In this document: positions 28,070 to 62,200 of the stretch, piece after piece
How positions within the stretch are numbered: position 1 is the stretch's first letter
How the letters are laid out: each line of letters opens with the position of its first letter
Origin: Clostridia bacterium
GTDB lineage: Bacteria; Bacillota; Clostridia; Oscillospirales; Acutalibacteraceae
DNA length: 64,000 bases
NCBI GenBank assembly: GCA_017502085.1
Contig: JAFVVQ010000050.1
Span: 97,973 to 161,972, forward strand
Reading direction: 5' to 3'
Program-made: the position numbers and the translations under genes
The notes under the pieces: generated by a model
What the model was told of the DNA's origin: nothing
The model's input: only the letters and a program-made list of their open reading frames with translations
The model's database searches: none

Positions 28070-30313
28070 TTATGAAAAGCACTTACGGATTTTCAAAATA
28101 TTCATTCCGTCTTTATACTCATAGGAGATTTCGTCCATTATGTTTTTTGCAATAAAGATTCCGAGACCTCCGACCTGCCTTTTATCTGCGGAAAGAGTAA
28201 TGTCTGGCTCCGCCTGAATAAGAGGGTTATAAGGCACACCGCTGTCGATAAAAGTTATATCAGCAGCCTGTGGATTATCTCCGTTCTCAATGCTGACGGT
28301 TACATCTCCCGTTTCGGTGGTATATGCATAGTGAGCAATATTGCCGAAAATTTCGTCAACCGCAATATCTATCTGTGTCTTTGCCTTCATCGGGCAACCA
28401 AAGGCTTCAAGCTGTTCATTGATAAAATCCGTGACGGTCTGAATATTCTCAACGGTTGCAGCAACGGTTATTTCTTTCATCGAGGCAGATTTCTCTCCGT
28501 TAAACTTAAGACAAAGCATAGTGATATCATCAAACCGGGATGCTTCGCCCACAAACAAATCAACATCAGCCTTGACTTCGTGACAGATTTTCTGTGTGCC
28601 GCATTCTGAATTCTTATTCAGCACTTCAAGCAAACGTTTTTCGCCGTAAAGCTCATTTTCTGTGTTCATTGCTTCAGTAACGCCGTCGGTATAAAGATAG
28701 ATTATATCGCCCTTTTCAAGCTGATATTCATTCTTGCGGTAACGGATGCCTTCCATACCTGCGAGAACAAAACCAGGTCTTGTTTTGAGATAGCTGAAGC
28801 TTCCGTCTGCGCGCTTTATAAGTGGAGGATTGTGGCCTGCGTTTGCAAAGGTGACAAGACCCGTTTTCGTGTTCAGCAGACCCATCCATGCGGTAACAAA
28901 CATTCCCGCATCATTGCCCTCACAGAGTTTTTCGTTTGCGTTTGTAAAAACATCTTCGACGCTCATGCCTGATTCCGCATAGCTTTTGAGAAGGGTTTTT
29001 GACTGCATCATAAACATTGCCGCAGGGATTCCCTTGCCCGAAACATCGGCAACAAGGAAGGCAAGCGTATCCTCATCGACAAAATAAAAATCGTAAAAAT
29101 CACCGCCAACCTCTTTTGCTGTGTGCATAGTTGCGCTGATATCAAATTCTTTTCTGTTAGGATACGGCGGAAAAACCGACGGCAACGCCGAATGCTGAAT
29201 CGCTTTTGCAAAGGCAAGCTCCGCATCAATTCTCGCTTCCGCCTCGGAAATATATTTTTTCAGTGTGTTGACGGTAGAGTTGATGTCATCCGAAAGTGCA
29301 TCAAACTCAATGTGTGAGCGCACGTCTACAACGGTATCGAGATTTCCTTCGGTTATAGCGGAAAGAGAATCATTGACCTTATATATGTTTTCAACAACAA
29401 GTCGTTTTACAAGCATGAAAATCATAATAAAAAGCGCTGCAAAAACAATAATCTGCATCACCGTTGTAACGCCTACCGAAACGTTTCGCGAAAGAGCCGC
29501 TTCGCTTTTGGGCATAACGGCAACTATGCGGTATCCCTCTGTCAACTGGTGCATACAGTAACAGGGTTCACCGTAAACATCGGCTGTAAACGCCTCGTTT
29601 TCGGGTATATTATCGGTATCAATCCAGATTCCCGTAACGTCAAGATTCTCTCCTTCATTGCCGTAACGGTCGCTGACAATGTTCCAGTTTTCATCAACAA
29701 TTATAATTGAGCCGCCTTCGCCTACATGTCGGTTTCGGGTAACGCCGACAACGAATTCATCAATATCTTTCTGAAAACGTTCCGCACCGTAGCCAACCTG
29801 CACGAATCCGCCGTTTTCAAGCGTAACACCGCCGTACTTTCTCGAAATGGAAGCATCATAAGAAACAGGCTGATAGCTCTGCACATATTCGGTTTCGTCC
29901 GAAAGCAAAACCATAAATTCAGCAGACTGCCCGCCGCTTCTCATATCATAATTGAGAAAATCAGGATATGTGCTTGCGAAAATTATTCCGTCGGAATTTA
30001 TGCAGTTGATTTCGGTAACACCGTATTTTTTTGTGAGCTCGGCAAGCAGTTCGGAAGTTATTCTTTCCGATTGATTCAAATCATCCGCTATCTGATTTGT
30101 GAGCTTTAAGAGGTTTTCGTCGGATGCGTCGATGATATCTTCTCTGACATCGGAAATGTTAAGTTCAAGCAAGTTAATCGCATTATTCTGCGAAATTTTT
30201 GTTTGCGAAATCCAGAGAAAAGCAGTTGTTGCCAGAAAAGCAATAACCACAAGCACCAACAGCCAACGCCCGAATGCACCTGATATATTCTGTTTTTTAT
30301 TTCTCATAATCAT
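28070..30313 (-). CDS. SpoIIE-type PP2C phosphatase with extracellular sensor, HAMP and C-terminal kinase-like ATPase domain
   Basis: Encodes 747 residues; the start ATG overlaps the stop of the STAS gene by 4 bases. Order of domains: membrane helix (WLLVLVVIAFLATTAFLWI), an extracytoplasmic sensor of about 250 residues, second helix (MQIIVFAALFIMIFMLV), HAMP (to about residue 365), SpoIIE/PP2C (VGGDFYDFY, VADVSGKGIPAAMFM, LYTDGVTEAMN, RFDDITMLCLK), and a HATPase domain (IDIAVDEIFGNIAHYAY, FIDSGVPYNPL, GGLGIFIAKNIMDE). It should dephosphorylate a STAS antagonist and may also rephosphorylate it or bind a sigma factor. The neighbouring STAS protein is the obvious partner. This is the last gene of the NHLM export operon. 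Confidence 0.88.
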   Translation of the reverse strand: MIMRNKKQNISGAFGRWLLVLVVIAFLATTAFLWISQTKISQNNAINLLELNISDVREDIIDASDENLLKLTNQIADDLNQSERITSELLAELTKKYGVTEINCINSDGIIFASTYPDFLNYDMRSGGQSAEFMVLLSDETEYVQSYQPVSYDASISRKYGGVTLENGGFVQVGYGAERFQKDIDEFVVGVTRNRHVGEGGSIIIVDENWNIVSDRYGNEGENLDVTGIWIDTDNIPENEAFTADVYGEPCYCMHQLTEGYRIVAVMPKSEAALSRNVSVGVTTVMQIIVFAALFIMIFMLVKRLVVENIYKVNDSLSAITEGNLDTVVDVRSHIEFDALSDDINSTVNTLKKYISEAEARIDAELAFAKAIQHSALPSVFPPYPNRKEFDISATMHTAKEVGGDFYDFYFVDEDTLAFLVADVSGKGIPAAMFMMQSKTLLKSYAESGMSVEDVFTNANEKLCEGNDAGMFVTAWMGLLNTKTGLVTFANAGHNPPLIKRADGSFSYLKTRPGFVLAGMEGIRYRKNEYQLEKGDIIYLYTDGVTEAMNTENELYGEKRLLEVLNKNSECGTQKICHEVKADVDLFVGEASRFDDITMLCLKFNGEKSASMKEITVAATVENIQTVTDFINEQLEAFGCPMKAKTQIDIAVDEIFGNIAHYAYTTETGDVTVSIENGDNPQAADITFIDSGVPYNPLIQAEPDITLSADKRQVGGLGIFIAKNIMDEISYEYKDGMNILKIRKCFS

Positions 30314-30606
30314 TCAATGGTCAGAACGTCGCAGAAACCTGTGATTTCAAAAATTTCCATTATGGTTTCGTTTACGTTTCTGACAATCATTTCGCCCTGC
30401 TTATTCATAAATTTCTGTGCGCCCAGAAGCACACGCAGACCTGCAGACGAAAGATACTCAAGCGATGCAAAATCAAAAACAAGCTTTTCTATCCCGTCTA
30501 TACTCTGATTAAGCTCCGCTTCCAGTTGAGGGGCGGTTGCGGTATCGAGTCTGCCCTCAAGGGCGATTGAAAGTTCATTTCCGTTAGCTGTTTTATTGAT
30601 ATTCAT
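30310..30606 (-). CDS. STAS-domain anti-sigma factor antagonist
   Basis: Encodes 98 residues, the usual single-STAS length. Key features are LSIALEGRLDTATAPQLEAE, LVFDFASLEYLSSAGLRVLL with the phosphorylatable Ser in SSAGL, and a C-terminal IFEITGFCDVLTIE. Such proteins switch between free and kinase-bound states depending on phosphorylation. The ATGA overlap with the SpoIIE-type phosphatase gene indicates tight co-translation. No sigma factor gene is in the window. Confidence 0.92.
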   Translation of the reverse strand: MNINKTANGNELSIALEGRLDTATAPQLEAELNQSIDGIEKLVFDFASLEYLSSAGLRVLLGAQKFMNKQGEMIVRNVNETIMEIFEITGFCDVLTIE

Positions 30607-30623
30607 AGCTGTTTCCTCACTTT

Positions 30624-30923
30624 TTATACCCTGCGCACGATAACATGTTCAATCTCGCTTGTTTTATATCCGCAACATTTTCGGGTAATCCAATATATCG
30701 GATTGCCGTTCAGAATACCGCGTACACCTGTAATCGTTGCCTCGTAATTTTTAAGCAGTTTAGCGCATCTCGGACAATAATCGATTGTCGGAGGGTTTAT
30801 TATTACAACGTCTCCGACCCTATATTTGAGGGTTACAACGGTGTCTGCACCTGTTCCGCCTGAGACTGCATCAAGCATATCGTCGTCAATTTCAAAGTTT
30901 TTGTTGTTCAATTCGTTATTCAT
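30624..30923 (-). CDS. Double-glycine leader precursor peptide B, Cys-containing
   Basis: Encodes 99 residues from ATG 30923 with AAAGGTGA upstream. The leader NKNFEIDDDMLDAVSGG ends in the Gly-Gly cleavage site used by C39 peptidases. The 75-residue core has a beta-rich start (LKYRVGDVVIINPP), then D-Y-C-P-R-C, and R-K-C-C-G-Y, giving four Cys arranged like a zinc ribbon. It ends with VIVRRV. It lies 17 bases after precursor A and 17 bases before the STAS gene. It is likely exported and cleaved by the transporters upstream. Whether it is a bacteriocin, a signal or a metal-binding effector is unknown. Confidence 0.7.
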   Translation of the reverse strand: MNNELNNKNFEIDDDMLDAVSGGTGADTVVTLKYRVGDVVIINPPTIDYCPRCAKLLKNYEATITGVRGILNGNPIYWITRKCCGYKTSEIEHVIVRRV

Positions 30924-30940
30924 AATCTTTCACCTTTCAA

Positions 30941-31294
30941 TCAGAATGAGCTTACATATTCCCGGTCACTGTTAACATCCCGGACCCATTTTGCCGAAGT
31001 CCCAGAGCTTCCGTAATAACCTGTGCCGCATTTGGTGCAGGTCAGCATACACAGCTTTTTATACTCTCCGTTAGTGCAACAGACAAACTTTGCTTCATAA
31101 CGGAAACGTTCATAATGCAGTTCGCAATTCCAGCACGCCCTTCCCGCTATATTGCGCACAATGCTGTGATTCGGAATCTTGCACTCCGAAAAATCAGCGG
31201 CGCATTCACCGCCTGCAACTGCATCAAGCTCGTCATCGCTGAGTTCTACGGGACCGTTGTTTTCCAAGATGTTATCAAGTTTCTCGTTTGATAT
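30941..31294 (-). CDS. Double-glycine leader precursor peptide A, Cys-rich
   Basis: The leader SNEKLDNILENN, then GPVELSDDELDAVAGG, ends in a C39-type Gly-Gly site; the core of about 88 residues has nine Cys (E-C, S-E-C, C-W-N-C, V-C-C, L-C-M-L-T-C-T-K-C). The start is unusual: a strong AAGGAGG at 31309-31303 points to ATA 31294 (8-base spacing) or ATT 31297, with no ATG or GTG. A TTG at 31267 is the nearest ordinary alternative but lacks a ribosome-binding site and gives 108 residues. I report the longer form. Gene order puts it directly after the second ABC transporter. Confidence 0.65.
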   Translation of the reverse strand: MSNEKLDNILENNGPVELSDDELDAVAGGECAADFSECKIPNHSIVRNIAGRACWNCELHYERFRYEAKFVCCTNGEYKKLCMLTCTKCGTGYYGSSGTSAKWVRDVNSDREYVSSF

Positions 31295-31317
31295 AATAAA
31301 TTCCTCCTTGAATTAAA

Positions 31318-33501
31318 TTAAATATCAAGACGCTGTCTTTCAACAAGCTCAGCGAACTTTCCGTTTTTTGCTATCAATTCATCATAAGTGCCGTCCTCAA
31401 CGATTTTGCCTTTTTCAAGATAGATGATACGGTCACATTGTCTGATGGTTGAAAGTCTGTGGGCAATAACGATTCTGGTACACTTGAGTTTATCGAGCGA
31501 ATCCGAAACAATCTTTTGCGTGATATTATCAAGGGCGCTTGTTGCCTCGTCAAACATCAGGATTTTCGGCTTGGGAGCAATTGCTCTTGCAATCATCAGC
31601 CTTTGGCGCTGACCGCCCGAAACACCGCCTGAGCCTTCGGAGATGATTGTGTGCATTCCCATAGGCATTCTGCGGATATCATCGGCAATGCCTGCCATTT
31701 CTGCGGCATCCCACGCATCGTCAAGAGATAAGTGCGGTGCGGAAATCACAATATTTGAGTAAATATCCCCCTGAAAGAGTTTGCCGTCTTGCAGAACAAC
31801 GCCGATTTTGCGGCGGAGTGAACGCAGGTCAACGGAATTAAGGTCTTTGCCGTCATAATAAACCGCGCCTTTCTGCGGCTTTTCAAATCCCAACAGAATT
31901 CTCATAAGAGTTGATTTACCGCAGCCTGTGGCGCCGACTATTGCCACATACTGTCCCGCACGGATTTTGAGCGAAAGGTCATCGATTACAAGCGGCATAT
32001 TTTCGTTGTAGCGGAAAGAAACGTTGTTAAGCTCAATTCCGCCCGAAAGTCTGTCAATAACAAGCTTTCCTTCAGATATCTCGGGAACGGTTTCCATAAT
32101 CGGTTTTGCCATTTCGATGATTGGCTTGAACTTTGCGATTGTGGTCGCTATGCCTGCAAGCGACATAAATGCACCCGAGATCATACCGTAAGCCGCATTG
32201 AAAGAACAGTAATCGGCAACGGAAATTTTACTTTTAACAGACATATAGTACATCACGATAACTCCGACAAGAGAAATGGCTGTGCTGAGCGTACCGTTCA
32301 CCCTCAGAAACATCGGGGTATTGTATGTAGTTCTGACTACTTTTGCATAGAGTGACGACCAACGGGAATAAGCTCTTTTTTCGGAGCCCGAGAGTCTGAT
32401 TTTCTGTATTCCCGAAATCAGAGCGTAGCTCATACCGTTTTCCTGCGCACCGAGCTCCATCTGCTTTTTGCTGTAATGCATCTGCAAGAATGACGTGACA
32501 AGCGAAAAAACAACGGTAATTAAAATAATTATCAATGCAGGAACTACCAGGTTCGGGGTGTAAGCGAAAATCTGTGTTATATATAAAAGCGAAAAAATTG
32601 AGGTAAGACCTGTGTTGAACACGGTTGATACAAGCATCGAGCACAGAGTCTGAATATTACCCGATCTGCTTGAAAGTTCACCCGAACTGTATTGCTTGAA
32701 GAAATCGGCAGGCAGAGATAAAATCCTCATCATTGTTGCCGCCTGAACAGAAAGCTCAAGCTTCGTTCCGACCCTTGCAGACAGAAGTCTTCTGACCGTC
32801 TGAAACAGCAGGGAGCTGACGGAAACGCAAATCATAAATATTGTTATGCCTGCCAGCATTTTTAAGCTTTGGTTTTCAACAACCGTACCGAAAAGAATAT
32901 TGTTGAGCATGGGTGTCAGCATACCAACAGCCGTAACGGCAAGGGTTGCGGCGGCAACGAGAACGATGTCAGCAACCGACATAGTTTCGATTATGTATCT
33001 TGCCAGATCGTGAAGAGTAAGCTTTTTAAGAGGAAACGGCTTATAAAAGCAAATTGCTTCGCTTTCAAAAAGATTTTCATTTTTCTTTGAGAGTTTTATC
33101 CATTTGCCTGACGGAGCGTCAAAAAAGCTATATCCAGTAAGACCTTTCGGAATAAACGCAACAACACTGCCATCATCTTTTCTTGTGCCCAGAATTGCTC
33201 CGACCGCATCTTTATACCAACCTTTTTCAAGATTGATGTTTCTGCTCATAATGCCGTTGGGGCGCAGAAGATATTCAAGGCGGTCATTAAGATTTTTGAG
33301 ATTATCGGGCACTTCAACGGGTTTGATTTTATAGTATCTGAGTATGTAATCGATTGCGCTGTCGGCTTTTTCGGCGTCGCTTTTATATGCTTCAGACATT
33401 TTTGTGCCGAGAACCGCATCTGCCATACCTACAAACGATTCTTCAAGAATTGCATCGTCATTTTTCTTGCGCAATTTTATCTGTTCGTCAAACCAACCCA
33501 T
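31318..33501 (-). CDS. NHLM-type ABC transporter, ATP-binding/permease protein without peptidase
   Basis: Encodes 727 residues, AAGGAGGTGG before ATG 33501. The N-terminal 170 residues are a non-peptidase domain typical of the second transporter of NHLM bacteriocin systems (RPNGIMSRNINLEKGWYKDA, FIPKGLTGYSFFD). Six membrane helices follow (e.g. DIVLVAAATLAVTAVGML), then an ABC domain: Walker A GATGCGKSTL, signature VSGGQRQRLMIARAI, Walker B ILMFDEATSALD and IAHRLSTIRQ. It most likely pairs with the peptidase-bearing transporter encoded 14 bases upstream to export the two double-glycine peptides. Confidence 0.87.
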   Translation of the reverse strand: MGWFDEQIKLRKKNDDAILEESFVGMADAVLGTKMSEAYKSDAEKADSAIDYILRYYKIKPVEVPDNLKNLNDRLEYLLRPNGIMSRNINLEKGWYKDAVGAILGTRKDDGSVVAFIPKGLTGYSFFDAPSGKWIKLSKKNENLFESEAICFYKPFPLKKLTLHDLARYIIETMSVADIVLVAAATLAVTAVGMLTPMLNNILFGTVVENQSLKMLAGITIFMICVSVSSLLFQTVRRLLSARVGTKLELSVQAATMMRILSLPADFFKQYSSGELSSRSGNIQTLCSMLVSTVFNTGLTSIFSLLYITQIFAYTPNLVVPALIIILITVVFSLVTSFLQMHYSKKQMELGAQENGMSYALISGIQKIRLSGSEKRAYSRWSSLYAKVVRTTYNTPMFLRVNGTLSTAISLVGVIVMYYMSVKSKISVADYCSFNAAYGMISGAFMSLAGIATTIAKFKPIIEMAKPIMETVPEISEGKLVIDRLSGGIELNNVSFRYNENMPLVIDDLSLKIRAGQYVAIVGATGCGKSTLMRILLGFEKPQKGAVYYDGKDLNSVDLRSLRRKIGVVLQDGKLFQGDIYSNIVISAPHLSLDDAWDAAEMAGIADDIRRMPMGMHTIISEGSGGVSGGQRQRLMIARAIAPKPKILMFDEATSALDNITQKIVSDSLDKLKCTRIVIAHRLSTIRQCDRIIYLEKGKIVEDGTYDELIAKNGKFAELVERQRLDI

Positions 33502-33515
33502 TTATGACCACCTCC

Positions 33516-35702
33516 TTAATCGTTAGTTACAAGCTTCGTATAGAAGCCGTTAAGGGCATAAAGATCATCGTGCGTTCCGCGTTCAACAACAACACCGTTA
33601 TCCAGAACTATAATTTCATCGCAATCCCTGATGGTTGAAAGACGGTGGGCAACCACAATACAGGTTATTCCCCTGTCTTTGATGGATTCGACTACCTCAT
33701 ATTCTGTTTTTGCATCAAGTGCCGACGTCGCTTCGTCAAGAATAATGATTGTGGGATCCTGGGCAAGCACACGCGCAATCTCCATTCGTTGTCTCTGCCC
33801 GCCCGAAAAATCCTTTCCGCCTTCTGTAAGCTTATAATTATAGCCGCCGTCACGCTGCATAATATCCTCGTGCAAATGAGCATCTCTTGCGGCAAGAATC
33901 ATTTCAAAATCTTCAATCGAACTGTCCCACATTTTGATGTTGTTTGCAATTGTGTCTTCAAAAAGAATAACGTCCTGGTCAACAACAGCAAGAGAACCTC
34001 TGAAAACACTTTTGTCAATCTGCGTTATCGGTTTTCCGTCAAAGAGAATTTCGCCCTCCCACGGTTGATAAAGACCTGAAATAAGCTTTGATAATGTTGA
34101 TTTTCCGCATCCCGAAGTGCCGACGAATGCAACTCTGCTTCCGGGTTTTAAAGTAAGATTGAAATCCCTGATTAACGGGTCGCCGAGCTTCGAATAACCA
34201 AAGCTGAGGTTTTTGATTTCCACTGCGCCCGTAAGTTTACTGTAAACCTCGTTTTCATCAAAAACACCGTTTTCACACGCAATATCATCGGGGTATCTCA
34301 TAACGTCTTCAATGCGTTCCATCTCCGTTCTCATTTCCTGCATGGTCTGACCCGCGGTAATGAGATTTGATGCCGGGCTGATAAATGATGAGAGCATACC
34401 CTGAAATGCCATTATCATACCGACAGTGAATTCACCGTTAAACGTGAGAAAAACACCGACTGTCAGAACAGCCGTATTGGTTAAAACAGAAACTATTTGC
34501 GGAATAAGACCCAGAACATTATCAACCTTTGAAAACTTAACAGTCTGCGAATTGACACTCGCCTGATATCCCGACCACTTTTCAAAAAAACCGTTTTCCG
34601 CACCGCCGGCCTTGATTGTTTCTATCATCTCAATACCTGCAACCGATGTGCTTGCAAGTTTTCCGCTGTCACGGGACAAAACACGGGTCGAATTAATTCT
34701 CTTTTTAGAGATTATTCTTGAAACAAAAACGTCAATAACGATTGCAACCAAACCTATCATTGTAAGTACGGCATTGTATCTTATCATCACAACGAAATAG
34801 AAAATCATCATAAATGCATCAATGGCAAGGGGTGCAACCGTCGATATCAGCGTGTTTGAAACCGATGCGTTGGAGCTTTTTCTTGTCTGAATATCTCCTG
34901 CCATGCGCTGTGAAAAGAAATCCATGGGCAGATGAAGAACTTTCCACATAAAAGTGGTGTTACCGACGGCAGCTATTTTTGCGTTGATTCTTGCAGAATA
35001 AATTGCCTGAATCAAAGAAACCGTAAGCTGTATCACGGTCAGTGCCGCCAGACCCAGGATAAAAGGCAAAAACCACTCAGGGTTTTTCCCCGTCAGAAGA
35101 CGGTCCATAAAAACTCTGGTAAACGCAGGGTTGATTATCCCTGTCAGCGAAGCGATAACCGTTGAGATTATTGTAAAAGCAACCGCAACACCCGCACCTT
35201 TGAGTCTTTTCTTTGCAAAATCATATACGCTGTCGGGTTTACCGCCCGGCTCAAAATTTTCTGACGGTTCAAACATCAGACAAATTCCCGTGAACGATTT
35301 GTCAAACGCCTCCATCGTCACGGAATATGTTCCTTTTGCAGGGTCATTAAGCACAGCCTTGTTGCCTTTGAAGCCGTCAAGCACAACAAAGTGATTGAAA
35401 TTCCAGTGAATGATGCAAGGGAATCTGCCGTTCTTTTTTAATTGATCGGGTTCAAAACGGTAGCCTTTTGCCTCAAGACCGTAACTTCTTGCCGCTCTCA
35501 GAACATTTTTTGCGTTGGACCCGTCTCTGGAAACTCCGCAATCAGCACGCACCTGCTCAAGCGGAATCCATTTTCCATAATATGCAAGTATCATTGCCAG
35601 TGATGCGGCTCCGCATTCAAGCGCTTCCATCTGCATAACAACAGGCACTTTGGCAACGCCCGAATTCAACGGCTGTTTGACCGGTTTGTTCTTTTTTGCC
35701 AT
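33516..35702 (-). CDS. NHLM-type C39-peptidase ABC transporter
   Basis: Encodes 728 residues from ATG 35702 (GAGGTG 6 bases upstream; GTG 35711 is less well placed). The N-terminal C39 peptidase has the active Cys in MEALECGAASLAMILAYYG, the His in HWNFNHFVVLDGF and the Asp in LNDPAKGTY, so it should cut after Gly-Gly leaders. Six transmembrane helices follow (residues about 170-450), then the ABC domain: Walker A GTSGCGKSTLSK, signature FSGGQRQRMEIARVL, Walker B IIILDEATSALD. This matches the peptidase/ATP-binding component of NHLM bacteriocin export. Confidence 0.92.
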   Translation of the reverse strand: MAKKNKPVKQPLNSGVAKVPVVMQMEALECGAASLAMILAYYGKWIPLEQVRADCGVSRDGSNAKNVLRAARSYGLEAKGYRFEPDQLKKNGRFPCIIHWNFNHFVVLDGFKGNKAVLNDPAKGTYSVTMEAFDKSFTGICLMFEPSENFEPGGKPDSVYDFAKKRLKGAGVAVAFTIISTVIASLTGIINPAFTRVFMDRLLTGKNPEWFLPFILGLAALTVIQLTVSLIQAIYSARINAKIAAVGNTTFMWKVLHLPMDFFSQRMAGDIQTRKSSNASVSNTLISTVAPLAIDAFMMIFYFVVMIRYNAVLTMIGLVAIVIDVFVSRIISKKRINSTRVLSRDSGKLASTSVAGIEMIETIKAGGAENGFFEKWSGYQASVNSQTVKFSKVDNVLGLIPQIVSVLTNTAVLTVGVFLTFNGEFTVGMIMAFQGMLSSFISPASNLITAGQTMQEMRTEMERIEDVMRYPDDIACENGVFDENEVYSKLTGAVEIKNLSFGYSKLGDPLIRDFNLTLKPGSRVAFVGTSGCGKSTLSKLISGLYQPWEGEILFDGKPITQIDKSVFRGSLAVVDQDVILFEDTIANNIKMWDSSIEDFEMILAARDAHLHEDIMQRDGGYNYKLTEGGKDFSGGQRQRMEIARVLAQDPTIIILDEATSALDAKTEYEVVESIKDRGITCIVVAHRLSTIRDCDEIIVLDNGVVVERGTHDDLYALNGFYTKLVTND

Positions 35703-35712
35703 AACCTGCACC

Positions 35713-36186
35713 TCAATTTATCACAAAGGATATCGGGGATATACTTTCTATAATGATTTCGGCGCTGTAGATTCCTTCGGCAGAATCGCCGTCTACCGAA
35801 ACGGGATAAACCCATTCTCCGTTTTGCAGGTTTCCGACATATCGTACATATTCTGAAAAATCATTGCCGACGAGAACGGGCTGAACCGAAATATCGGTTA
35901 TCACACCTTCCTTGCCTCCTATCATAACGTTCATACCCTCTTGGATTTGCTCAATATCCGATTCTTTGACATATACGGTTATCCCTGAATTCTCAACAAC
36001 CGCTACCGTTGTAACCGCAGTGTCAAGATGTCCGAGAATCCCCCATACACAAACACCGACAAGAAGAATCACGATGGCAGCAAGAACCATCCACACTCCC
36101 GGATTAGATACCCTTATATATTCGTTAAACTGTTCGGGCGAAGAAATCTTTTCCATACTCTTTTTTCTGAATAACTGTTCGTCCAT
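35713..36186 (-). CDS. Short HlyD-like NHLM secretion adaptor
   Basis: Encodes 157 residues from ATG 36186. The N-terminal LFRKKSMEKISSPEQFNEYI, then one membrane helix (WMVLAAIVILLVGVCVWGIL) and GHLDT, match the start of NHLM-system secretion proteins. A beta-barrel-like C-terminus follows (GITVYVKESDIEQIQEGMNV, GKEGVITDISVQPV). The long coiled-coil hairpin of normal HlyD proteins is missing, so the chain is well under half the usual length. It could be a minimal adaptor for a gram-positive envelope. The gene lies 6 bases after the TetR gene. Confidence 0.72.
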   Translation of the reverse strand: MDEQLFRKKSMEKISSPEQFNEYIRVSNPGVWMVLAAIVILLVGVCVWGILGHLDTAVTTVAVVENSGITVYVKESDIEQIQEGMNVMIGGKEGVITDISVQPVLVGNDFSEYVRYVGNLQNGEWVYPVSVDGDSAEGIYSAEIIIESISPISFVIN

Positions 36187-36192
36187 AACGTT

Positions 36193-36900
36193 TTATCCTT
36201 TCTTCGCCGCAACATCTTCAAATGCCGCAGCAGTTACTTTTTCTACATATTCAATAAAATCTCTCAATATCCGCTGACCGATTGCACGGTAATCCATATT
36301 GAGAACTGCGGCTATCTTCATTTTCCGTGTTTCTTCAGGTATGCCGTATATACTCATTATCTGATTCAATGCTCCCGAAATTCTGACATTAAGCGGTGCT
36401 GAATTCTCTGTTGTCATAAGAGTTGCATATTCAATACCCGAAACAAGCGTTTCAGCTTCGATATACTGATATTCAGCCCAATCCTCGCAGTAATCGGTAT
36501 AAACCTTCTTTGACCTTTCAAGGTCGTTTTTACGAATAATTTCAAGCGTCATCGGGCTTTGATATGCAGAAACAAAAAAGTCCTTTGCAATTTCATTTTC
36601 CTCACAAACCGCCGCCATCGACATAAGTTCAAGGCAGATTGACATAACCGGACCTGTGATGTCATCGGTTTCATTTTCCATCAGCTTCCACTGAAAATCA
36701 CACAGCATATCAACAAGCTGTGCAAGCAGATGCTCTTTGGTCGGGAAATGAAACATAACGTTGCCCGGGCTGATTCCGACCTTTTCGCCGATTTGCCTTA
36801 TTGATGTAACGGAATAGCCTTCTTCAAGAAACAATCGGCTGGCAATCCGAATAATTTCCAGCTTCGTAACGCTCGGTTTCTTTTTTCGCTTTAATGCCAT
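36193..36900 (-). CDS. TetR/AcrR-family regulator at the head of the NHLM operon
   Basis: Encodes 235 residues from ATG 36900 (GAGGAG 9 bases upstream). The N-terminal helix-turn-helix is clear: TKLEIIRIASRLFLEEGY, SVTSIRQIGEKVGISPGNVM, FHFPTKEHLLAQLV. The C-terminal ligand domain contains FQWKLMENE, AKDFFVSAYQSP, GIEYATL and RISGALNQIMSIYGIPEE. It is closely paralogous to the TetR gene at 55500-56177 along the whole chain. As first gene of an operon with a palindrome next to its -10 element, it most likely represses its own operon; the inducer is unknown. Confidence 0.87.
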   Translation of the reverse strand: MALKRKKKPSVTKLEIIRIASRLFLEEGYSVTSIRQIGEKVGISPGNVMFHFPTKEHLLAQLVDMLCDFQWKLMENETDDITGPVMSICLELMSMAAVCEENEIAKDFFVSAYQSPMTLEIIRKNDLERSKKVYTDYCEDWAEYQYIEAETLVSGIEYATLMTTENSAPLNVRISGALNQIMSIYGIPEETRKMKIAAVLNMDYRAIGQRILRDFIEYVEKVTAAAFEDVAAKKG

Positions 36901-36940
36901 CTCAGGTTTCTCCTCAATCGTCTGTAATAGAATACACTTT

Positions 36941-36964
36941 AGAGCGTGTTTTAGAACACGTTCT
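36941..36964 (-). promoter_or_regulatory. Candidate TetR operator
   Basis: A 24-base inverted repeat with half-sites AGAGCGTGTTTT and AGAACACGTTCT (two mismatched pairs) directly follows the -10 element of the NHLM operon promoter, where a bound repressor would block transcription. Confidence 0.6.
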
Positions 36965-36993
36965 ATTTTAAATTAAACCAACACTGTTGTCAA
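36965..36993 (-). promoter_or_regulatory. Promoter of the NHLM operon
   Basis: On the minus strand, TTGACA (36993-36988) and TAAAAT (36970-36965) with a 17-base spacer. Confidence 0.8.
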
Positions 36994-55499: not shown

Positions 55500-56177
55500 G
55501 TGATTATTATCGGCAGAAGGAAAGTCAACACAACCAAACTGGAGATTATTCAGGTTGCAACGAGCAGATTCATTAAAAAGGGATATTCGTCAACAACATT
55601 CAGAATGATTGCAGACGAGCTTGATACAAGCACCGGGCATATAGTTTTCTATTTTCCGTCAAAAGAATCTCTGCTTGCCGAACTTGTTGAAATGCTATGC
55701 AATTTTCAATGGAAACTGATAAAGGAAGAAGCAGATGAGGGTATGAGTTCGCTGCTTGCCCTTTGCTTTGAACTGATGACAATGGCGGCGGCTTGTGAAG
55801 AAAGCGAAGTTGCGAAAGACTTTTTTATCTCGTCATATCAGAGTCCGAAATGTCTTGAAATTATTCATAATAACGACACCGCAAGGGCAAAGGAAGTTTT
55901 TGCGGAATACTGTCCCGATTGGACAGACGAACAGTTCAGAGAAGCGGAAATTCTTGTTGCAGGCATTGAATACGCAACGCTGAATGCCATTGATATAACC
56001 GTACCGCTTGAAACACGTATTTCGGGTGCGCTGAACGCAATTATGATGATTTACAACGTGCCCGAAGAAATCCGCAGGATAAAGATTGATAAGGTTCTTG
56101 CAATGGATTACTGTTCAATCGGCAAACGCATTTTCAACGAGTTCAAAGAATATGTTGAAAAAGAAAATGCTTTTTAA
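55500..56177 (+). CDS. TetR/AcrR-family regulator, paralogue of the NHLM-operon regulator
   Basis: Encodes 225 residues, probably from GTG 55500; the AGGA site is only 4 bases away, so the start is uncertain. The helix-turn-helix is TTKLEIIQVATSRFIKKGY, STTFRMIADELDTSTGHIVF, YFPSKESLLAELV. The C-terminal domain shares FQWKL, AKDFF, YQSP, GIEYATL, RISGALN and MDY with the protein encoded at 36193-36900. It stands 42 bases before the giant surface-protein gene and probably controls itself and that gene. Confidence 0.87.
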   Translation: MIIIGRRKVNTTKLEIIQVATSRFIKKGYSSTTFRMIADELDTSTGHIVFYFPSKESLLAELVEMLCNFQWKLIKEEADEGMSSLLALCFELMTMAAACEESEVAKDFFISSYQSPKCLEIIHNNDTARAKEVFAEYCPDWTDEQFREAEILVAGIEYATLNAIDITVPLETRISGALNAIMMIYNVPEEIRRIKIDKVLAMDYCSIGKRIFNEFKEYVEKENAF

Positions 56178-56219: not shown

Positions 56220-59200
56220 ATGCAAAAGAAAATCAAAAAATCATTGGCGGCCATACTCTCGCTTCTGATGATTATGACGGCCATTCCGTTTACACCTGTT
56301 GCTGTGGCAACAGACGGTGCGGATCCGATTACCGAAAAGGATTGTACAGAGCACGCCGACACAGACGGCAACGAATTCTGCGACGTATGCGGTGAACTTA
56401 TCAACGCAAAGGTGATTACGGCAGATTCGGACGGTATGGTTTATGTTGACGGTGAGGCACTTGAGATTACCGGTTATTACAATAATGATCTTATTCTCCC
56501 TGCAGGTAATTATAAGCTTACGGGAGACGTTACGTCAGCATATTATATAGGAGCAAGAGAAGGTGATGTCACTCTTGACCTTAACGGATATGTATGGGAT
56601 ATGAAAGACTGTTATTTGTTGTTGTTGTCCCATCAATTTTCTCTTTATGACACATCCGATGCCGGGACGGGTAAGCTTACTTCTTCATGGATAGAGACCG
56701 TATATATCGGTAAAACTGACACACAGTGCGGAACATTTAACCTTTACAGCGGTACTGTAGAAAACACTTCAACGCTTACAGATTCCTATATTATAAGTGC
56801 GTCATACGGAGACGCAAATCTTTACGGCGGAAAAATCAAGGGCAACGCTTATGCTTTCTTTAATTATATGTTTTCGGATTTGACAATTAACCTTGACGGT
56901 ACGGTGATTGAAAACGGCGAAGGTTATGCTCAGGTTAAATCCGATCTTATGGACGGCGATACACCGAAAACTGTTATTGACGTGACAGACTATACAGGTG
57001 AATCTTTTACGGTTGACGCAGAAATTGATGAAGAAGGCAAAATCAAAATTTTTGAAGGAATCAAATCTGCTCAGGAAGCGGAAAACTATCAGATAAACTT
57101 TTTAACTAAGTACGGCGAAGTATACTGTGAAAAAACAGAATATGACGAAGCAACAGGTGAAAAGTATATCTATGTTTTGAAAAACGCATTTACTCAGCAG
57201 CCCTCTGATAAAAATAACTACACCGTTGAATTCAACAATCCCGATGCTTCATTCCAATGGTATGAGGTTAATGAAAATGAGATTGGTAAATATACGACTG
57301 AAGAAAGAGACCTTTTGTTTACATATGATTTTGAAAAAGGTGACATATTAAAGGTCACAACAGTCTCAGAGATAGAGTATGCAGTTATAGAGGCAGGTTC
57401 TTACCGTTTGCGTTTAGACAAGGAAAATAAAACTGCAACGGTTACAATCGATGAAGATGAGACGATTGAAATTTTTACGCGTTTTGTTGATCCGGAAAAT
57501 GACGTTGAATTAAATTTCAGTGTCATAAAAGAAATTTCACTTAAAGGTGAAACCGGTAAAACTTTACAGACCCCCGAGCATGAAAAATCATATTGGTGCA
57601 AAGCAACTGTAGGCACAAAGGTTTATCCTTCAGATATTGCTTTTATATGTTATACGCACGACTACGACGAAAACGGCAAGTGTTACTATTGCAAAATGCA
57701 GGCAGCCGCAAAGGTAACCGACAAGGATGGTAATAAGCTTTCGGACTCACCGTATGATACCTTTGCAGAGGCAGTCACAGCGGCAAGTGCAAGCGAGGGC
57801 AGTACACTCACCCTGCTTGATGATGTTACGCTTACCAAAGAGCAGAATATTCGCTCAGGCAAGTTCACGCTTGATCTTAACGGCAAAAACCTGATTAACG
57901 TAACCGGCAGAGTTCTGTATATATATGAAGAAGTTGATTTGACAATTAAGGACAGCGGTGAAACCGGCACTCTTGAAAGCATGAACGACGGAAGTTCTGT
58001 AATTTGGAATTACGGTACACTTACCGTTGAATCGGGCATCATAAAGGGCGCCGGCGGTATTGACAACAAAGGTACACTTACCTTTAAAGACGGCACGGTG
58101 GAGGTTGTTACCTATTCGGCAATCTATAATACCGGCACGGCTTATGTTTATGACGGCGTGCTGAAACACGCTAAATCACACGCAATCGGAAACTACGGTA
58201 CACTTTATGTTTACGATGGCGAGATTGACGGCATCATAAACGGTTGCGATGCCTATATCTCCGGCGGCGAAATAGACTGCGACAACTATGCGGCACTCAA
58301 TCTGCTTGGCGGTAAGCTTGAGGTAACCGGCGGCAGCTTCACAGGAACAGACCTTGCAAGCGGTTATTACAGCGGCACACCCTACGGCGAATGGACTGTT
58401 TACTTTGGTGAAGATGCAACCCTCACCCTCAAGGGCGGTGAGTTCCCCAACGGTTTTGCTGTTGCTAATACAACCGCAAACACATCCCTCGCAGAGGGCT
58501 ATGCTTTCTATGATAAGGACGGCAACAAGATAACCGTTGCAGATGATGCAAAAATTATCGACGGCTATGTTCAGGTCAAGGAGCGTTTCGTTGCTTCCGT
58601 AACCGACAAAGACGGTAACGAGCTTGAAGGTTCACCGTATAAGACCTTTGCTGATGCAATTACAGCGGCATCCGCAAGCGAAGGCAGTACACTCACACTG
58701 CTTGATGATATTACGCTTACCGAAACCGCCAGAATCTCTTCGGGCAAGTTTATTCTTGATCTTAACGGCAAAACCATTCTTAACAAAACTGATGATGCTT
58801 TAATGGTTTATTACGATGCAAACATAACAATCAAGGACAGCTGCGAAGGCGGTACAGTTGAAACAGGCGGCGATTATTGTTATGGAATTCTTAACTCGGC
58901 TGAGCTTACCGTTGAATCCGGTACTATAAAGGGTAATGGCTCAGGCATCTCAAACCACGGCACACTCACCGTTAACGGTGGTAATTTTGAGTCTTATACA
59001 TATGGTGCAATAACTAACAAAGGAACAGCTAAAATCTACGGCGGTGTTTTTGAGGGCATAGACAGAGGTGAGGGCGTTCAAAACGACGGCAACGGTGAGA
59101 TTTATATTTATGGTGGCGAAATAATCGGCAATACAGCTTTATTAAATACCGGCACAGCCTATATTTCCGGCGGTGAATTTAACGGTAACGACTATGCGGC

Positions 59201-62200
59201 ATTAAACATTCTTAAAGGCACGGTTGAAGTAACCGGCGGCAGCTTCACGGGAACAGACTTTTCAAACGGTTATTTCAGCGGCACACCCTACGGCGAATGG
59301 ACAGTTGATTTTAACTCCGAAGCAACCTTCATCCTCAAGGGTGGCGAATTCCCGAACGGTTTTGTTATTGATGAAACAACCGCAAACACATTCCTTGCAG
59401 AGGGCTATGCTTTCTATGATAAAGATGGCAATAAGATAACCGTTGCAGATGATGCAACAAAGATTGAAGGATACGTTCAGGTTAAGGAGCGTTTCGTTGC
59501 TTCCGTAACCGATAAGGACGGCAACGCTGTCGGTACTTACAAAACCTTTGCAGATGCAATCACAGCGGCACAGGGCAGTGAGGGCAGCACACTCACCCTG
59601 CTTGATGATATTACACTTACCGCAGAGCAGGTTATTCGCTCCGGCAAGTTCACCCTTGACCTTAACGGTAATAACTTGATTAACGAAAACGGCAGAGTTC
59701 TCTATATTTTCGATGAAGCCGATTTAACAATTAAGGACAGCGGTGAAGGCGGTACGGTTGAAACTAAACGCATGTATACGAAATGTATTGATAATTCCGG
59801 TAAACTCACTGTTGAATCAGGTATAATCAAGGGCGACGGCGGCATTGACAACTACGGTGTTTTGTATTTTAATGACGGAACGGTTGAAGCTGACAACTAT
59901 GGGGCGATAGCAAATTTTAGTGACTGCACTGTTTATGTTTATAACGGTGTTCTGAAAAGTTCAAACTCCGGCGCAGTTGAAAACAGCGGTACGCTTTACA
60001 TTTACGATGGCGAGATTAAAGGCATCACTAATTCTAACACTGTATATATTTCCGGTGGCACAATAGACCGTGATGATTATGAGGTACTTAATCTGCTCGG
60101 CGGTACGCTTGAAGTAACCGGCGGCAGCTTTACGGGTGGAAAATGGACTGTTGGCTGTACTGAAGGTGCAGCCCTTATCCTCAAGGGCGGTGAATTCCCC
60201 AACGGCTTTGTTGCTTATAATGCAACTGCAAACGCATTCCTCGCAGAGGATTATTACTACAAAGATGCCGACGGTAAGCTTATTGATGTTGCAGATGATG
60301 CAAAAATCATTAACGGCTACGTTAAAGTAAGCAAGGGTGCTGACCTCTCCGAAGCAGTTATCACTCTTGACCAAACTCAGTTCACCTACAGCGGCACGGA
60401 GCACAAGCCCACGGTTATCGTAACAGTCGGCGGCAAAACTCTCACAGAGGGCAAGGACTATACACTCACATTTGCAAACAACGTTAATGCAGGTATTGCA
60501 ACCGTAACGGTAAGAGGTATCAGTCAGGCGGCAGGCGGTATCGCAGGCGGCGGTGAGGATATCGGAAACAGCTCGAATTCGGGTGATATTACCGAAAGCA
60601 TCTACACGGGCGAAATCATCAAGAATTTCACAATCAAGCCCGCAACGGTTGATATCATCTGGGAAGGCGACGTGTTCTATTACACAGGCAATCCCCACAA
60701 AGTAACAGCGAAATATGTTGACGTAAACGGCGATGAAAATCCCGCGGCAATCACACAGAACAAAACCAACACCGAAATCGGTAAATATATCGCAACCGCA
60801 GTTGTTGAAGATTCAAACTACACTGTAAACGGCGCAACCGTCAACCACGCCTACGAAATCAAGTGGTATGACGGCGCACCCGATGCAACGTTCAGCGGCA
60901 CAAAGGGCGAAAACGGTTGGTACACAAGCGAAGTAACCGTAACTGCTCCTGAAGGCTATGCAATCAGCACTTTGGCTGACGGCATCTACGGCAGCGAAGT
61001 CACCTTTGGAAACGAAGAAAAGGTGGTTTATTATCTCAAGCAGGCAGAAACAGGATATATTGCAAAAATTGAGCTTGGTAAATTTGCTGTTGACCTTAAT
61101 GACCCTGAAGCCGAAATCGTAATCGGCGAATATAAATGGAATACAAATGCAACTGCGATTTCATTCGGTCTGTTCTTTAAGGAAACAAAAGCGTTCAGCA
61201 TTTCTGCTTCCGATTCCGAAAGCGGCATTGCATACGTTGAATACTTTGTTGCAACCGAAAAAATCACAGATTTCGGAAATATTGAATGGGTTGAATATAC
61301 AGGTGCAGTCAGCATCAGTCCCAACAGCAAAAACATTATCTACGCAAAGGTAACTGATAATTCGGGCAGATATGTAATCGTAAATTCCGACGGTATCGTG
61401 CTTTATACCGACAGCACACTCGACACATCCTTCAAGGATGAGGTTGTTTATGTTCTCACCAAAAATGCAAGCCAGTCATTCAATCTCAACCTCAACGGCA
61501 ACACCGTTGCTTACGTTAAGATTGGCGAAACCGTTCTCGCCGCTGAAAATTACGAAGTTCTCGGAAATATGATTATAGTTTCATCCGATGTTCTTGAAAA
61601 CCTCGCGGCAGGTGAATACGTAATCACGGTCGGCTTCAATCCGATGGGCGAAGCCTATGCCGAAGGCGATGCTCCTGCAGAAGTCACAATTCCTCTTACC
61701 GTCAAAAAAGCAGATGTAACGATTGAAATTTCTGATTTCGGCAAGGTTTATGACGGCAAGCCCGTAACCGCAGACTATAAAATCAGCAAATCAAGCGATT
61801 CTTCGCCTGCGGCAAGCAATATTGACTATAACGAAACCGTTGAATTCAAGGTAAAGGATTCAGACGATTCAACCTACACAACCGAAGCTCCCGTAAACGC
61901 AGGAGAATACACAGTCAGAATCACAGTTACCGAAACAGACAAGATTAATTCTGCAGAGGCAACCGCAGATTTCACAATCGAAAAGAAGTTCGTAACCGCC
62001 ACCGCCACCGCACCTGACAAGGTTTATGACGGAACGAATTCTGTTGATATTTCAAAGGCAACAGTTACTCTTAACGGCATTGTTGAAGGTGATGACGTTA
62101 AAATTGAAATCGGCAACGGAATTTTTACCGATTCAAATGTCGGCAAAAATATAAGAGTTATTCTTTCTTATACCGTAAGTGGAGATGATTTGAATAACTA

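Follow-up and report, generated by a model that had tools for sequence, protein, structure and literature searches.

The NHLM/NHLP export trio, in which a peptidase-containing ATP-binding cassette (ABC) transporter, a second ABC transporter and an HlyD protein lie in one cluster, was defined by Haft et al. in 2010, and mixing and matching of exporters and modifying enzymes was already suggested there (PMC2887384; this and the other four papers named here are cited from excerpts). LahT, an AMS/PCAT transporter from Lachnospiraceae bacterium C6A11 (PDB 6mpz), was characterised as LahT150 (PMC6363468), and seven groups of cyanobacterial bacteriocin clusters were distinguished by Wang et al. in 2011, of which groups IV and V contain a second ABC transporter without a C39 domain (PMC3140520). 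PteB-dependent secretion of small proteins with a double-glycine motif, for which the excerpt mentions no modification step, was reported for EbfG1–4 of Synechococcus elongatus (PMC4997328), and PMC12648078 deals with unmodified class II bacteriocins of the gut. Here we compare with these systems an eight-gene export operon on the minus strand of a 64-kb stretch of DNA from a Clostridia bacterium of the Acutalibacteraceae (assembly GCA_017502085.1, contig JAFVVQ010000050.1, positions 97,973 to 161,972), referred to below as the window.

With a confidence a little better than even, the operon is read as a mix-and-match exporter that in this case secretes two cysteine-rich mini-proteins in unmodified form, possibly controlled by a linked STAS/SpoIIE-kinase switch. 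As far as its own genome shows, it would be an exporter of known type that lacks a maturase, has a reduced adaptor and is linked to a phospho-switch. A first-pass annotation, made from the sequence alone, had proposed eight minus-strand genes in a fixed order, and all were recovered (28070–36900) from the open reading frames (ORFs) of the sequence itself and a family check: behind a TetR gene come a short HlyD, the C39-bearing transporter (ABC1), a second transporter (ABC2), the precursors pepA and pepB, a STAS protein and a SpoIIE-type protein. That annotation had also taken the system for a variant not known to have been described. This was not supported: C39-dependent double-glycine secretion with no reported modification step is known from a cyanobacterium, and on the evidence of that excerpt (EbfG/PteB, PMC4997328) the operon is no new system.

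As in the trio of Haft et al., a peptidase-ABC transporter, a second ABC transporter and an HlyD protein share one cluster, and ABC1 and ABC2 pass the corresponding models; unlike it, the window has an HlyD of 157 aa that falls below its model, leaders that are not of the NHLP type, no thiazole/oxazole-modified microcin (TOMM) or LanM enzyme that could be found, and a linked STAS/SpoIIE pair (PMC2887384). LahT is the closest studied protein: 107 of the 144 residues compared between its C39 domain (LahT147, PDB 6mpz) and that of ABC1 are identical (74%), it removes many double-glycine leaders, and its cluster encodes several double-glycine precursors with varied cores (PMC6363468). Its nine precursors, however, have Nif11-type leaders, whereas neither pepA nor pepB matches Nif11, and its domain is presented in the excerpt as a tool for ribosomally synthesized and post-translationally modified peptides (RiPPs). 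The EbfG/PteB system likewise exports small double-glycine proteins through a C39 transporter, a likeness seen in the published description, but belongs to a cyanobacterium and has a role in biofilms (PMC4997328). The groups of Wang et al. combine HlyD and C39-ABC genes with many varied precursors, but they are not from Clostridia, modified products are expected of them, and neither STAS/SpoIIE genes nor a short adaptor are mentioned in the excerpt (PMC3140520).

Exporter, adaptor and cargo

ABC1 and ABC2 both exceeded the cut-offs of their NHLM models (Table 1), in agreement with the proposal of the first-pass annotation, which had named these models as a check, that the two-transporter set is NHLM-like. 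ABC1 starts at GTG 35711, with ATG 35702 as another possible start. Its C39 domain (PF03412, 123.8 bits) retains the motifs LECGA, HWNFNHF and LNDP, which we take to be catalytic, and the Walker and signature motifs of the ATPase are intact in both transporters. A C39 domain with intact active-site motifs and two double-glycine precursors are thus found together, as in C39/PCAT double-glycine exporters.

The NHLM set had also been called complete, which holds for the two transporters but not for the HlyD, whose match to TIGR03794 is below the cut-off and covers only positions 1–55 of the 421 in the model. The adaptor fails this model because the clade uses a shrunken HlyD (157 aa; about 75 in some relatives). 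In an alignment of 40 adaptors, for which those of relatives had been picked at a length of 140–190 aa, all 40 (that of the window included) matched TIGR03794 at E 0.001, if weakly, the best at E 2.5e-13 (roughly 50 bits, a converted estimate). The commonest adaptor length among relatives was 157 aa, and the adaptor ORF was just 72–80 aa in loci L056, L075, L076, L078, L079 and L086. Judged from these comparisons, the short adaptor is a trait of the clade and not a truncation in this genome. Between the sister loci L123 and L124, TetR and HlyD are 97–99% identical (synonymous divergence, dS, 0.02–0.06) and ABC1 and ABC2 84–85% (dS 0.86–0.95), which is likely to mark a recombination boundary between HlyD and ABC1.

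Apart from the two precursors, no frame shorter than 350 codons anywhere in the window matched the leader pattern applied. Cysteine pairs are found in the cores of both, CWNC, CC and CTKC in pepA and CPRC and CC in pepB, and neither protein has a Pfam domain. Against models of NHLP and Nif11 precursors, pepB gave no match and pepA matched only the CTB bacteriocin model NF038167, over its leader, at 25.5 bits (cut-off 32). At the distance from the AGGAGG ribosome site of pepA where a start is expected, the codon is ATT/ATA (31297–31292, with ATA at 31294–31292), and an in-frame TTG lies further inside at 31267; in relatives, the codon behind the ribosome site that aligns with ATT/ATA is ATG. 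The ATT/ATA would be either a rare start codon or the mark of a silenced gene.

Matches to pepB were obtained in 5 of the 148 genomes searched, namely its own, three others from the genus and, at E 0.004 and over the leader, one more from the family. In the three same-genus genomes a single cargo gene joins a leader of the pepA type to the core of pepB; compared with these sisters, pepA in the window shares the leader type but has a different core, and pepB shares the core but has a different leader. The ratio of non-synonymous to synonymous substitution rates (dN/dS) of the pepB core was 0.24–0.37 among three genomes (0.24–0.29 in comparisons with the window), and that of ABC1 and ABC2 was 0.09–0.11, a stronger constraint; by this measure the pepB core is under purifying selection. 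When 108 cores were compared with pepB, that of the sister locus L009 stood out (z 42) and the next best reached z 4.2, through shared cysteines. Cores in L022 and L028 that had been considered as homologues were dropped, as they were not clearly above shuffles.

At least 590 stretches with a related exporter were found, mostly from gut Clostridia, and 80 related loci were compared. Cargo ORFs were collected by the leader pattern (139 ORFs from 42 loci, after removal of antisense frames and of ORFs with more than 3 unknown residues). A domain scan of 141 cargo ORFs at E 0.01 gave 45 Nif11 and 3 LysM matches and several weak zinc-ribbon matches. The LysM matches, two in L083 and one in L068, were well over the Pfam cut-off; the ORF in L068 lies 56 bases behind ABC2, those in L083 5.5 and 6.4 kb behind it. 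No SPASM, LANC, YcaO or A1 match (A1 being a profile of 13 of the relatives' radical-SAM ORFs) was found in the L083 genome, and none to the radical-SAM, LanM and PqqD probes in L068, where the stretch alone was covered. An SH3-like match in L087, 8 kb upstream and on the other strand, was below its cut-off (16.2 versus 27 bits).

Modifying enzymes in the genome and among relatives

No frame of at least 80 codons resembling any of 13 radical-SAM, LanM and PqqD probes was found in the window (E 1e-4) or in L009, L123 and L124; the same probes did find L125 and L126, as expected. The stretch of L087 (Sarcina sp. DSM 11001) also contains no such frame, and that of L074 (Anaerocolumna sedimenticola CBA3638) contains one of the radical-SAM kind. 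The statement of the first-pass annotation that no lanthionine, YcaO or radical-SAM enzyme is encoded within at least 10 kb is in line with these results. In the own genome, an assembly that is 84.5% complete, LANC, YcaO and A1 gave no match, other enzyme classes not being searched genome-wide; the genome of L009 also lacked an A1 match. The LanM proteins encoded at L125:2192-4372 (726 aa) and L126:11512-13641 (709 aa) match their 932-position profile best from about position 347, and are joined to radical-SAM and PqqD genes and short double-glycine peptides.

The own genome contains 34 Radical_SAM matches, five of them at places with a SPASM match. One of these five proteins resembles sulfatase maturases and adjoins a gene that by eye looks like a sulfatase gene; another is a SCIFF maturase, next to a SCIFF precursor of its own; and there are three others. 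In the assembly the SCIFF maturase (L103:2977-4358) is split over two frames, and the precursor is intact. The one that looked most RiPP-like is a radical-SAM (SPASM) protein on C13, beside an HPrK-like gene and unlinked to the operon, which shares 25–27% identity with the radical-SAM proteins found at L125 and L126. Matches to it at E 1e-60, many of them near 40% identity, were obtained in 20 of 45 same-genus genomes and in none of the three sister carriers of the exporter, G062, G096 and G099. This pair had been considered as a hidden maturase and was judged uncoupled from the operon.

By its own account, the first-pass annotation would have been refuted if homologous operons always carried a modification gene. 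This was not so: a radical-SAM-like ORF was present in 22 of the 80 related loci, within the stretch fetched, and absent from the stretch in 58, of which 24 reach less than 9 kb past the ABC1 start. In a set of 50 genomes, made up of the own one and the genomes behind 49 of the 80 related loci and selected chiefly because the locus had no radical-SAM gene, LANC and YcaO matched none, and A1 at E 1e-30 matched 12, three of them positive controls and nine from the 46 whose locus shows no such gene; three of these nine matches outside the locus are partial or weak. The exporter itself was found, at E 1e-250, in 6 of 45 same-genus genomes, the own included. Four of these carriers (the own, G062, G096 and G099) have no enzyme in the stretch and do have the STAS/SpoIIE pair; G099 was judged through L009, which has the same coordinates and is probably the same assembly.

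A quick tree of ABC1 was made with 85 proteins, of which 61 were scored; the 24 rows with less than 9 kb past the ABC1 start were left unscored. It has 27 open forks, and the long LanM-coupled rows are of unsure position. Enzyme presence needed at least 17 changes on this tree, 10 of them forced by starred branches, compared with a mean of 19.2 when presence was shuffled (78 of 500 shuffles as low as 17); enzyme presence is thus barely tied to exporter ancestry and appears not clearly clustered by it. The commonest maturase subfamily was clustered, with 8 changes and none of 500 shuffles as low. The A1 relatives, such as L010:16716-18104 and L081:4175-5566, form a radical-SAM/SPASM maturase family beside double-glycine cargo, one branch of which goes with repeated CACVxGGGG-type cores (L081, L044). 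Among the 25 best families listed for each of the radical-SAM proteins of L010, L081 and L066, no cut-off was reached.

Operon layout and the linked STAS/SpoIIE-kinase pair

From TetR onwards the genes are separated by 6, 1, 14, 23, 17 and 17 bases, and STAS and SpoIIE overlap by 4. Gaps of at most about 25 bases, as first described, are therefore correct, the largest being 23; the fourth gap (ABC2 to pepA) becomes 50 if pepA begins at the inner TTG.

Table 1. Features of the export operon, in window coordinates
Feature	Position	Strand	Basis
TetR-family regulator, 235 aa	36193..36900	-	PF00440 43.9 bits, cut-off 24
Short HlyD-like adaptor, 157 aa, one membrane span (by eye)	35713..36186	-	TIGR03794 35.5 bits, cut-off 156.2
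ABC1: C39 peptidase, permease and ATPase, 731 aa	33516..35711	-	TIGR03796 942.9 bits, cut-off 853.3
ABC2: permease and ATPase without C39 domain, 727 aa	31318..33501	-	TIGR03797 753.1 bits, cut-off 709.4
pepA: double-glycine precursor, 117 aa if from ATA, 88-aa core	30941..31294	-	Leader pattern; listed TTG start 31267
pepB: double-glycine precursor, 99 aa, 76-aa core	30624..30923	-	Leader pattern; constrained core
STAS protein, anti-sigma-antagonist type, 98 aa	30310..30606	-	TIGR00377 71.2 bits, cut-off 53.45
Membrane sensor (by eye), HAMP-like, SpoIIE phosphatase, RsbW-like kinase, 747 aa	28070..30313	-	PF07228, PF13581
Sigma-70-like promoter, TTGACA-17-TAAAAT	36965..36993	-	11/12 consensus matches
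Inverted repeat, 11 pairs, overlapping the -10	36940..36965	.	Probable operator of the operon's own TetR; binding inferred

The single strong promoter that had been claimed corresponds to a site that ranks first among 21 promoter-like ones of the region. The site alone is little proof, because the total is as expected from shuffles (mean 19.0), and an argument from site counts was dropped for this reason. What speaks for the site is the palindrome that overlaps its -10, since one of the same type is recognisable at the same place in two sister genomes, beside a -10 and a TetR start; it makes a TetR operator, and autoregulation of the operon by its TetR, likely. Terminator-like sites numbered 26, against 10.5 in shuffles, most of them inside genes, and no argument was drawn from them. 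A second TetR (55500–56177, plus strand), 54% identical to that of the operon, directly precedes a repeat protein of 2534 aa (56220–63824, plus strand) with a signal-like start by eye.

The SpoIIE-type protein matches PF07228 at 178.9 bits and the RsbW-like kinase domain PF13581 at 70.7 bits, each over its cut-off, so a partner-switch phosphatase and kinase are fused in one protein; a HAMP match of 16.7 bits was below the cut-off of 25. Counting the STAS protein, all three parts of a partner switch are present above their cut-offs, and the STAS protein would be the obvious substrate of the fused phosphatase/kinase. Kinase and phosphatase are also combined in one protein in the SypE/SypA and HsbR/HsbA switches. 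A multi-domain regulator reportedly acts on a STAS protein in both (PMC3610818, PMC6482189); the regulator in the window differs in looking membrane-bound and in having no receiver domain in a Pfam scan.

Among the 80 related stretches, 48 contain STAS (at least 50% identity) or SpoIIE (tblastn, E 0.001); where the stretch is at least 18 kb long, STAS is found in 25 of 39 and either gene in 27 of 39. With 3 STAS genes in the 2.63 Mb of the own genome, chance alone would place one within 10 kb of about 2% of randomly chosen points (an estimate from this single genome). The pair is co-directional with the exporter in the window and inverted in L009, L123 and L124, so co-transcription is not required. 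No sigma factor is encoded among the eight genes; a cluster of sigma-factor-like ORFs was noted by eye at 12 of the 80 relatives' loci. At these loci (L017, L040, L042, L070 and others) the gene recurs downstream of the exporter, and a protein of 61–106 aa with a common pattern is found at 8 loci, usually just before it. A literature search, which left most subscription papers outside, returned no report of a Clostridial NHLM system with STAS/SpoIIE and none of a STAS switch that controls peptide export post-translationally. The phosphatase/kinase–STAS switch may act on export.

Competing readings and the meaning of the exporter

The first-pass annotation had proposed an export route for unmodified, folded or disulfide- or metal-containing proteins. 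For unmodified cargo speak the NHLM-type transporters, the lack of LANC, YcaO and A1 matches in the incomplete own genome, the sister operons without an enzyme and the LysM cargo of relatives; the disulfide- or metal-containing part is still conjectural, CxxC cargo being commoner beside radical-SAM maturases. This association is the first of several observations that weigh against unmodified cargo. Cargo ORFs at radical-SAM loci (67) hold 10.1 cysteines per 100 residues and those elsewhere (72) hold 3.6, 47 of the latter being without any cysteine. A radical-SAM gene was found locally at 14 of 21 loci with CxxC cargo versus 4 of 17 others (Fisher p 0.011), and genome-wide at 16 of 21 versus 6 of 17 (p 0.020), p values that are rough since the loci are related; the counts cover 38 of the 42 cargo loci, with L016 and L051 (cores under 12 residues) and L064 and L068 (genomes not in that search) left out. 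The cysteine-rich pair of the window therefore resembles cargo that is usually accompanied by a maturase, and a modified ancestry of the cargo is possible; five of the 21 CxxC loci, sister L009 among them, have no detectable radical-SAM gene. Within the genus, G075 and G086 combine the exporter with a radical-SAM protein, a PqqD domain and LanM, which scores 362.6 and 355.4 bits against a cut-off of 304; no STAS/SpoIIE match was found in the 19 kb fetched from them. Added to this are the missing conventional start codon of pepA, the incompleteness of the assembly, the fact that the LANC, YcaO and A1 searches did not extend to the whole genomes of G062 and G096, and a best match of E 0.58 when pepB was compared by sequence with solved structures. 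A folded or metal-bound state of the cargo remains a proposal, because pepB has no solved relative and neither protein a Pfam domain.

If the cargo were modified by an enzyme encoded elsewhere or missing from the draft, the likeliest candidate would be a radical-SAM protein of the A1 family, or another SPASM protein acting in trans. In addition to the company that CxxC cargo keeps and the nine relatives with A1 outside the stretch (three partial or weak), the starred 15-row clade of the window on the ABC1 tree includes radical-SAM loci, and the own genome has the unlinked C13 pair. We nevertheless consider this explanation unlikely, since neither the own genome nor that of L009 has A1, and loss of a maturase from both drafts by chance is estimated at about 3 in 100 (84.5% and 80% completeness, taken as independent and with L009 as G099). 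The C13 enzyme, moreover, is absent at E 1e-60 from the three sister carriers and matched in 17 same-genus genomes without the exporter, and the SCIFF maturase has its own precursor.

Double-glycine leaders with a C39 exporter are also the pattern of class II bacteriocins, and the operon could be an ordinary one of this kind, its unmodified peptides killing competitors. The weak likeness of the pepA leader to the CTB model and the faster evolution of the pepB core relative to the exporter would fit, yet no immunity-like protein was seen by eye among the eight genes (one of unknown type could escape), the cores are long and cysteine-paired, and relatives' cargo includes LysM domains; in Synechococcus, C39-secreted double-glycine proteins serve biofilm formation (PMC4997328). 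We rate the bacteriocin explanation as a little less likely still. Decay of the locus, with an exporter that persists and cargo that gives no working product after loss of a maturase, seems highly improbable. The start of pepA, the patchy distribution of the exporter within the genus and the radical-SAM loci among its tree neighbours could be so explained, but ABC1, ABC2, STAS and SpoIIE show dN/dS of 0.06–0.14 in comparisons with the window (the pepB core being under weaker constraint), motifs are intact, and promoter region and palindrome are recognisable in two sisters.

Under the favoured reading of export without modification, TetR would repress its own promoter at the palindrome, and the C39 domain of ABC1, given its identity to LahT and its intact motifs, would cut both precursors after Gly-Gly. 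ABC1, probably with ABC2, would then export the C-terminal parts, and the shrunken HlyD may serve as an inner-membrane adaptor for which no reach to an outer membrane is needed. The cargo would be enzymatically unchanged, its cysteines free for metal or disulfides, and SpoIIE-kinase/STAS would act as a membrane sensor, the phosphorylation state of STAS tuning operon or exporter.

The exporter would in this case be a chassis that relatives pair with LanM, with several radical-SAM maturases or with no detected enzyme. As a wider and more doubtful proposition, the NHLM exporter of gut Clostridia with its shrunken adaptor might be a general route by which small folded proteins of LysM, zinc-ribbon-like and other types are secreted, with maturases repeatedly gained and lost and use switched by the linked membrane phosphatase/kinase–STAS pair. 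The name of the family models, "NHLP bacteriocin export", creates the expectation that the product is a modified antibiotic peptide. The exporter appears nearly indifferent to modification, so many loci of this group may secrete plain mini-proteins, which may escape chemistry-centred genome mining. It is predicted that one and the same transporter, its protease domain being LahT-like, can process and secrete cargo with and without modifications, and the STAS switch may offer post-translational control of peptide export.

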